DNA from: Silvibacterium acidisoli
GTDB lineage: Bacteria > Acidobacteriota > Terriglobia > Terriglobales > Acidobacteriaceae
NCBI GenBank assembly: GCA_022870745.1
Contig: CP085323.1
Span: 2,170,001-2,234,000 of the forward strand
Length of the DNA stretch: 64,000 bases
Reading direction: 5' to 3'
The position numbers and the translations under genes were made by a program. The notes below the pieces were generated by a model, which saw nothing but the letters and a program-made list of their open reading frames with translations, searched no databases and had not been told where the DNA came from. Shown here piece after piece: positions 54,194 to 56,287 of the stretch (its first letter is position 1; each line of letters begins with the position of its first letter).

Positions 54194-56287
54194 TTAGTCA
54201 CCCATTACGGTTTCTTCGGACGCGGGGGCTGCCTTGGGAGCCGGGGCGATGCCATCGATCGAGACCAGACCCTCGACCGGCTTCTCACCGAGTACGTGCT
54301 CACGGTACAGCTTGGCCATGCGGGCGTTTTCGGCATCGTTCTTAAGCTTCGCGTCGCGTGCGCGGATCTTTTCTTCGCGCGCATTCTTGGCGATACCCAG
54401 CTTGTCGAAGGTGTCGTTGGCAGCCGATTCAACGTGCTCCTGGTTCAGAACCAGCTTGCGCTCGTTGCTCGTCATGCCGACCTTCTTGCCGCCGGCGAAG
54501 ATTTCGTGACGGCCATGCTCTTCGTACCACTTGGTGAGCGTGGAGGTCATGTGCATCTTCTCGATAATGTTGCGCCAGCCCACGCCCGTGTTGTAGGCGC
54601 AGAAGCTGATCTCGCCTTCCTGGGTCGCGTAGGGGATGATGCACTGTTCGGTACGGCGGAAGTCGTAGTTGAACAGATCCTGGAACCACATGCCGGCGAT
54701 GAACAGGAAGTTCCAACGGTCAGAGCGGCGCTTTTCGATGTCGGCCATGGTGCGGTCGCCCTTGACCGAACCATAGTTCTTGCCGGTGGCGCCGAAGCAC
54801 TTGTCGAACTTCTGCAGCAGATCCATGATGCGGAAGTGCGTGGGCGACTTGGTCGGATCGTAGTTGCGCAGCAGCGCAAGCGACACACCGACGATCGAGA
54901 GGAACTTGCCGCGGGCGGCGTCGTTCACCTTGGCAACGTCCTTGGCCAGGCGCTCTGCGTTCAGGAAGGCAGTTACGGGAACGGCTTCCTTGGTTTCCTT
55001 GTCGATCATCAGCGCCATGCCGATGCCGCAGTTCGGGTGGCATCCGCAGGAGAGCTGACCCCAGTCCTTATCGGGTCCGTGAACCAGATCGGCCCAGTCA
55101 GAGAAGGTCGACATGAAGCTGATCGGGAACCAGTCGCGGGTAGGAACGCCCATGCCAACCTGGTTCTTTACGTCATGCGCCAGGTGCGACAAGGTGTAGC
55201 GCTGCGCGTGGCGGCGCTCGTCGCTGATCTCTTCGTCGCGGCCCGTGAACGAAACCGGCTGGAAGCTCAGGAAGCTGATCGTCTTCGGGTTGTCGAGCGC
55301 GAAGTTGATGATGCGGCCAACCTGCTCGTTGTTGATGCCGTTGATGATGGTCGTTACGGGAACGATGTCCACGCCGGCCTCGTGCAGGTTCTGGATGGCC
55401 TGGACGCGAACGTCGAACAGGTTACCGACCTTGCGGTGCGAGTTGGCGGCGTTGCCGATACCGTCGAACTGCAGGTATGCGTAACGCAGACCCGCTTCGG
55501 CAGCGGCCTTGCAGAATTCCTTGGACTTCGCGAATTCGATACCGTTGGTCGCAGCCTGCACCGAGTTGTAACCAACCTTGCGGGCATAGGCGACGGCGTC
55601 GAGGAAGTAAGGCGACAGGGTCGGCTCGCCACCGGAGAACTGTACCGACATCTGGCGGCGCGGCTTGATGCTGATCGCGTTGTCCAGCATCGTCTTGATC
55701 TCGTCCCACGTGAGCTCGTGGACGAAACCAACCTGGTTGGCGTCCATGAAGCAGGGGTCGCACATCATGTTGCAGCGGTTGGTCAGATCGATGGTCAGAA
55801 CCGATCCACGTCCGTGCGTCACGGTCGAGGTGCCGTGGTTGTGGAGCTTTTCGTCATTGTGGGCGCGGATGTCGCGGCCCGGGAAAACCTCTTCCAGGTG
55901 CTGCATGAAAGCCGGATCGATCGACATGACGTCTTCGAAATGGCCATGCTTGGGGCAGTCCTTAACCATCAGGATCTGGCCGTCGCGCTCGATAATCTGC
56001 GCCTTGATCTCGCCAACCTTCTCATTCAGAAGGATTTCGTGGGGCAGCTTGCCGTCCACGATCTGCTGACGGATCTCGGGAAGACACTTCGGGCAGAGCG
56101 AATCCGTGGTGCGGGGCCAGCCAAGGGGTGGCTTTTCCTTCTGATACGACTTGAGCAAGGGCTTATCGGACCACTTTGGGGTAAATGAAGGGTTCGGCTT
56201 GATGCTGTTGAGCTTCTCGAACACGGTCCATGCGCCCTGAGCGACTGCGGTAAGAGTCCTCTCGGCGTATTTGACGGCTTTCGACAT
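54194..56287 (-). CDS. Multi-cysteine radical SAM enzyme, COG1964/tetraether-synthase-like
   Basis: A 697-residue radical SAM protein. The SAM-cluster motif is CNMMCDPC (Cys 172, 176, 179), followed by the GGEP motif (FSGGEPTLSPY, 219-222). Before it lies a cysteine module: CPKC (65, 68) and CPKHGHF (111), the layout of a rubredoxin-like or auxiliary metal site. After it come CGCHPNCG (Cys 414, 416, 420), a second auxiliary cluster candidate, and later single cysteines (FDKCFGATGK, ISFCAYNTGVGW). This order matches archaeal tetraether lipid synthase (Tes, MJ0619 type) and its bacterial COG1964 relatives, which join alkyl chains of lipids. No signal peptide. AGGAG precedes the ATG. A strong terminator follows, so it is a single-gene unit. 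Exact function is inference. Confidence 0.85.
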   Translation of the reverse strand: MSKAVKYAERTLTAVAQGAWTVFEKLNSIKPNPSFTPKWSDKPLLKSYQKEKPPLGWPRTTDSLCPKCLPEIRQQIVDGKLPHEILLNEKVGEIKAQIIERDGQILMVKDCPKHGHFEDVMSIDPAFMQHLEEVFPGRDIRAHNDEKLHNHGTSTVTHGRGSVLTIDLTNRCNMMCDPCFMDANQVGFVHELTWDEIKTMLDNAISIKPRRQMSVQFSGGEPTLSPYFLDAVAYARKVGYNSVQAATNGIEFAKSKEFCKAAAEAGLRYAYLQFDGIGNAANSHRKVGNLFDVRVQAIQNLHEAGVDIVPVTTIINGINNEQVGRIINFALDNPKTISFLSFQPVSFTGRDEEISDERRHAQRYTLSHLAHDVKNQVGMGVPTRDWFPISFMSTFSDWADLVHGPDKDWGQLSCGCHPNCGIGMALMIDKETKEAVPVTAFLNAERLAKDVAKVNDAARGKFLSIVGVSLALLRNYDPTKSPTHFRIMDLLQKFDKCFGATGKNYGSVKGDRTMADIEKRRSDRWNFLFIAGMWFQDLFNYDFRRTEQCIIPYATQEGEISFCAYNTGVGWRNIIEKMHMTSTLTKWYEEHGRHEIFAGGKKVGMTSNERKLVLNQEHVESAANDTFDKLGIAKNAREEKIRARDAKLKNDAENARMAKLYREHVLGEKPVEGLVSIDGIAPAPKAAPASEETVMGD

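Follow-up and report, generated by a model that had tools for sequence, protein, structure and literature searches.

The window analysed here is 64,000 nt long and corresponds to positions 2170001-2234000 of an acidobacterial genome assembled as one 5.36 Mb contig. On its minus strand it carries an intact gene (54194..56287, ATG start, 697 aa) for a radical SAM protein akin to tetraether synthase (Tes) of archaea. The protein belongs to a lineage designated clade A and probably joins the omega ends of the iso-C15 chains of ester phospholipids, yielding iso-diabolic acid. Between a quarter and half of the fatty acids in many soil acidobacteria is iso-diabolic acid, which also serves as the building block of the brGDGTs that underlie widely used soil temperature and pH proxies. 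No proven enzyme for iso-diabolic acid in acidobacteria, its main producers, was found in the literature; the best candidate for its synthesis is the clade-A protein, whose gene is highly codon-biased and has no second member of its type in this genome. A link to lipid chemistry had been suggested in the first-pass annotation from family and organism. Six lines of evidence support it: predicted fold, metal ligands, tree, distribution, codon bias and the absence of any other Tes-type protein from the genome. The full cysteine plan read in that annotation was not borne out, and the protein is not a Tes equivalog.

Gene structure and codon adaptation

Within the protein, residues 168-330 match Pfam Radical_SAM (PF04055) at 72.1 bits (cut-off 29.5), and residues 58-122 match Zn_ribbon_HMPTM above its cut-off. 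A search of the genome with the protein returned a single strong copy, the next match reaching 24.6 bits. The Tes family model gave ~323 bits for the same protein and 62 bits for the next match; by this model the whole genome holds no further Tes-type protein. Two terminal regions are evident in the predicted model (coordinates here and for the sites below are all on the minus strand). Residues 2-27 (56207..56284) form a clade-specific amphipathic helix with a pLDDT of about 66-70 and a hydrophobic moment at the 99.7th percentile of the protein; it may touch the membrane surface. Residues 595-697 (54197..54505) are modelled as a C-terminal extension containing a long charged helix (H607-665), and alignments of more distant clade-A orthologs end near residue 620.

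The gene was previously described as monocistronic with a strong terminator of its own, and the layout agrees with this. No other gene on its strand adjoins it, and past the stop codon lies a terminator-like hairpin with a 15-bp stem (54127..54159, minus strand), the surrounding 89-nt stretch folding at -47.1 kcal/mol (z -6.45). The consensus terminator scanner missed this hairpin because too few T residues follow the stem. A consensus promoter scan gave a single match, located within the gene and at chance level. No conserved operon was found in the gene's own family: neighbours differ among the window, Edaphobacter paludis and a further genome (G225), and no conserved neighbour connects the gene to lipid genes in that family. 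Nearby in the window, at 58743-62399, are adjoining ORFs that by sequence resemble Ku and a DNA ligase of the LigD type, which together form an end-joining pair in bacteria.

Codon adaptation was calculated with weights derived from 19 of the genome's own translation genes. At a CAI of 0.794 the clade-A gene ranks 2 of 49 ORFs (median 0.547) and lies above EF-Tu (0.768), EF-G (0.742) and the highest of the 19 reference genes (0.787), while other radical SAM genes in the genome range from 0.38 to 0.72. The highest CAI of the ORFs tested (0.817) belongs to a TypA/BipA-like GTPase at 26795-28585. Across 31 same-family clade-A loci the mean is 0.73, with this genome's weights applied to all and a few loci repeating a genome. 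Codon bias of this strength, a proxy for expression, is unusual among radical SAM enzymes and is an independent line of evidence; it suits an enzyme whose product accounts for between a quarter and half of total fatty acids in related strains.

Metal sites and predicted fold

Tes carries four metal sites according to Lloyd et al. (PMC9433317). In the clade-A protein, C65, C68, C111 and H114 (CPKC and CPKHGH; 55946..56095) align to the rubredoxin-type site C9X2C12X20C33X2H36 of Tes, and the radical SAM cluster motif CNMMCDPC (C172-X3-C176-X2-C179; 55751..55774) is found by both Pfam and alignment. Further along, CGCHPNC (motif CGCHPNCG; 55028..55048) holds C414, C416 and C420, of which C414 and C416 are extra relative to Tes and invariant in clade A and the related lineage A'. 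The remaining positions of the catalytic [4Fe-4S]C site are Met533, C549 and C563 (54599..54691), with Met533 aligned to the labile Met439 of Tes. The C-terminal cluster motif is present in 55/55 clade-A/A' proteins, and C420, C549, C563, Met533 and the SAM cysteines are invariant throughout clades A, A', B and Tes. Conservation, together with the description in PMC9433317, suggests that C420, C549 and C563 are the likely ligands of the C-terminal [4Fe-4S] cluster.

According to the first-pass annotation, every cysteine site expected of the COG1964/Tes group is retained. The four motifs on which it relied (CPKC, CPKHGHF, CNMMCDPC and CGCHPNCG) are indeed present, as are the C-terminal cluster residues C549, C563 and Met533, which it did not list, but the ligands of one cluster are absent. 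Tes binds a surface cluster, [4Fe-4S]N, through CX3CX2C and a His that lie after the rubredoxin site and ahead of the SAM motif (PMC9433317). The corresponding residues 141-163 (55799..55867) read LHNHGTSTVTHGRGSV and contain no Cys; residues 141-152 have a pLDDT under 50 in the predicted model. The CX3CX2C and His ligands are absent from 55/55 clade-A/A' proteins examined, and H149 and H151 are invariant in these clades. Thirteen archaeal Tes-like proteins, mainly of Methanomassiliicoccales plus other Thermoplasmata, likewise have no [4Fe-4S]N ligands (L107, L110, L114, L117, L118, L119, L128, L131, L133, L135, L143, L149 and L150). Thus the cluster is not kept family-wide and is not strictly defining, and its loss is compatible with Tes chemistry. 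The archaeal loss is an event separate from that in clade A. One of the archaeal loci, L150:3414-5048, has a Tes-like frame of 1241 aa, possibly an intein or fusion.

An AlphaFold2 model of the clade-A protein (mean pLDDT 78.5) has M. jannaschii Tes, 7TOM and 7TOL, as its best structural matches (Z 46.3 over 482 residues, rmsd 2.6), although the input alignment included Tes-like proteins, which favours such a match. The matched region spans residues 56-594 at about 30 % identity in the structural alignment, and the next structural family, MoaA, reaches Z 19.9. Comparison of predicted structures, proposed earlier as a check, upholds the Tes fold; the absence of the [4Fe-4S]N ligands is seen in the sequence. 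Taken with the metal ligands and the tree described below, the fold bears out the kinship to tetraether synthase that had been read from the motifs.

Phylogenetic placement

By identity to the clade-A protein, four acidobacterial lineages can be separated: A (60-94 %), A' (50-59 %), B (34-39 %) and C (about 30 %). The NCBIfam Tes equivalog model NF045702 scores the clade-A protein at 323.6 bits, under the curated cut-off of 450; on this score and the missing [4Fe-4S]N ligands, assignment as a plain Tes equivalog was rejected. The TrsS model NF045646 gives 211 bits, also under its cut-off (490). Clades A and A' together range from 314 to 324 bits on the Tes model, whereas the acidobacterial clade B members tested exceed its cut-off (522-619 bits). 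One member of clade C exceeds the TrsS cut-off; this TrsS-like clade has the [4Fe-4S]N cluster and not the C-terminal catalytic ligands.

A tree including archaeal Tes and Mss, the membrane-spanning lipid synthase of Bacillota, had been suggested as a check. In the 71-row tree built here by a quick method, which contains no Bacillota Mss and in which several backbone forks are weakly supported, A and A' form a single clade (SH-aLRT 100) that stands apart from the Tes-equivalog clade B and is nested among bacterial Tes-like proteins, near acidobacterial B, with archaeal Tes deeper. A scan of genome contigs with the most central sequence (L062) as query retrieved Tes of archaea, Tes-like proteins of bacteria and three relatives from A', and no match titled Bacillota. 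A plasmid search gave remote matches only.

Clade A/A' sits on a long stem (1.41 changes per column), along which function may have shifted. Together with the Pfam domain name HMPTM, which echoes the pterin role first proposed for MJ0619, this stem lends something to the reading that clade A modifies a non-acyl target such as a pterin. Such a target is very improbable, however. The pterin role of MJ0619 was not corroborated and its pocket proved to be a lipid tunnel (PMC9433317), the ligands of the lipid-coupling cluster are invariant in the clade-A protein, and the codon bias appears too strong for a cofactor enzyme.

Distribution and lipid records

Some homologue is found in 179 of 297 acidobacterial genomes. 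Clade A is present in every genome sampled from its own family (36/36) and the sister family (2/2), 38/38 in all; two complete genomes of another family (f22) have no homologue at 1e-20. This distribution is in line with the occurrence of iso-diabolic acid in acidobacterial subdivisions 1, 3, 4 and 6 (PMC13274423). Other members of the order contain iso-diabolic acid at 27-49 % (PMC12935467). Additional copies and neighbours were also seen: a second clade-A copy (83 %) in an Edaphobacter-like genome (G055:C5:2386-4470), a broken fragment of another (G279:C3:322771-323072), and a clade-B Tes-equivalog gene close to clade A at L036, L037 and L038 (own-family genera g5 and g11), located at L036 directly downstream at about 210 bp.

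Lipid records could be tied to a few genomes only, among them those of the relatives E. paludis and Chloracidobacterium validum. E. paludis JP48T (G201) has clade A and no other Tes-type protein, and iso-diabolic acid is a major component in this strain at 25 % of fatty acids. C. validum BV2-CT (G085) carries, besides clade A, two C-type proteins that lack the catalytic cluster, and iso-diabolic acid is listed with its primary fatty acids. In both producers the clade-A protein is the sole protein with full Tes-type catalytic ligands. Occurrence of the gene in many species without membrane-spanning lipids had been named as evidence against a lipid role; no such pattern is seen in the few strains with lipid records, a small test.

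The same records bear on whether the clade-A enzyme might instead join diether lipids into brGDGTs. Its kinship to Tes, the diether route proposed for Solibacter (PMC10087280) and the traces of brGDGT in E. aggregans (PMC13274423) are consistent with this reading. Against it, iso-diabolic acid is recorded in E. paludis as a major fatty acid, the Tes cut-off is passed by clade B and not A, and clade B is absent from this genome. Furthermore, no long Ger/PlsA-type protein with PF01869 was found in the genome, the sole match over cut-off being in a 324-aa frame, which fits an ester-bound product. Coupling of diethers is accordingly an unlikely role, and coupling of ester-linked chains is preferred.

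A co-occurring radical SAM protein

In at least five families other than its own (f10, f58, f64, f74 and f78), the clade-A gene is directly preceded on the same strand by a gene whose product, P, is a radical SAM protein some 350 aa long and a likely partner. Among the 297 genomes, A and P occur together in 92, A only in 24, P only in 3 and neither in 178 (Fisher p 1e-49); counted by family the numbers are 22, 7, 2 and 47 (p 2e-11), both p-values ignoring shared ancestry. An ortholog match places P of this genome away from clade A, at G000:C1:1500991-1501932 (minus strand; L160:8953-10005). It lies 10 bp upstream of what is probably an adenosine deaminase gene (L160:7930-8943), whose product could clear the 5'-deoxyadenosine released by radical SAM enzymes.

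The proximity and co-occurrence of the two genes lend some weight to a reading in which P carries out the tail coupling and clade A performs another step on the same lipids. Yet the best solved relatives of P (PqqE, the cytosylglucuronate decarboxylase BlsE and MoaA) match with weak scores, P at its smaller size does not have the C-cluster arrangement of Tes, and the 24 genomes noted above have A without P. There is thus very little likelihood that the coupling resides in P. P may assist reductively, carry out a further step on the lipids or serve the envelope in some unrelated way. Counting against the main reading, it might share the chemistry or indicate another pathway.

Proposed mechanism

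In Tes, coupling proceeds by way of a C-S intermediate at a [4Fe-4S] cluster, and the crystallised enzyme had ester phospholipids of bacterial origin bound (PMC9433317). If the clade-A protein works likewise without [4Fe-4S]N, its SAM cluster would cleave SAM and the 5'-deoxyadenosyl radical would abstract a hydrogen at the terminal carbon of an iso-C15 acyl chain. The isopropyl end of this chain is locally identical to the phytanyl end used by Tes, and the likeness of iso-C15:0 and phytanyl is also noted in PMC8941075. The alkyl radical would then be trapped by C-S bonding to the C-terminal [4Fe-4S] cluster until a second chain, activated in the same way, displaced the first with formation of a C14-C14' bond. 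Coupling of two iso-C15:0 chains at their terminal carbons gives 13,16-dimethyl octacosanedioic acid, the systematic name of iso-diabolic acid.

A broader evolutionary reading is more tentative, with somewhat less than an even chance of being right: acidobacteria may have evolved their own membrane-spanning lipid synthase from a Tes-like ancestor, one that lost [4Fe-4S]N, gained H149/H151 and C414/C416, and works with P. The resulting aerobic sp3-sp3 coupling would be distinct from that of archaeal Tes and of Mss.

Comparison with known systems

Mss, from work of Sahonero-Canavesi et al. 2022, is reportedly a membrane-spanning lipid synthase of Bacillota. Its proposed product is iso-diabolic acid, and it shares the catalytic architecture of Tes (PMC13274423). 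For acidobacteria the lead itself is already known. In Zeng et al. 2022 (PMC8941075), a single homologue with 32 % identity to archaeal Tes is flagged in Edaphobacter aggregans, and acidobacterial homologues are proposed to act in bacterial membrane-spanning lipids. Given that this identity fits and that all sampled genomes of that family carry clade A, the E. aggregans homologue is very probably a clade-A ortholog; the relevant passages neither distinguish A from B nor note the absent cluster. A lipid role for a Tes homologue was also proposed for Solibacter by Halamka et al. (PMC10087280), and as late as 2025 bacterial Tes homologues were described as having unconfirmed activity (PMC11868695). 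Within the literature passages drawn on, the main Mss paper aside, several points have no counterpart and appear to be new: the separation of A/A' from Tes-equivalog B, the missing N-cluster beside a conserved catalytic site, the codon bias, P, and two producers in which no protein but A is a complete candidate.

Against Tes/GDGT-MAS (MJ0619; 7TOL/7TOM), the clade-A protein shares the fold, the rubredoxin site, the SAM cluster and the C-terminal cluster with its labile Met. It differs in scoring below the Tes cut-off, in lacking the [4Fe-4S]N ligands, and in having the extra C414/C416, the N-terminal helix and the C-terminal extension. TrsS-type proteins (NF045646, clade C) have the same SAM domain and rubredoxin region, without the C-terminal catalytic ligands. 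Acidobacterial clade B (e.g. L037:13836-15488) is found in the same phylum and sometimes at the same locus, with the same catalytic ligands, but it keeps the N-cluster, passes the Tes cut-off and is patchy, whereas clade A is universal in its own family. Clade A thereby provides a marker gene that is separable from the Tes-equivalog clade B, and makes the question of iso-diabolic acid synthesis directly testable.
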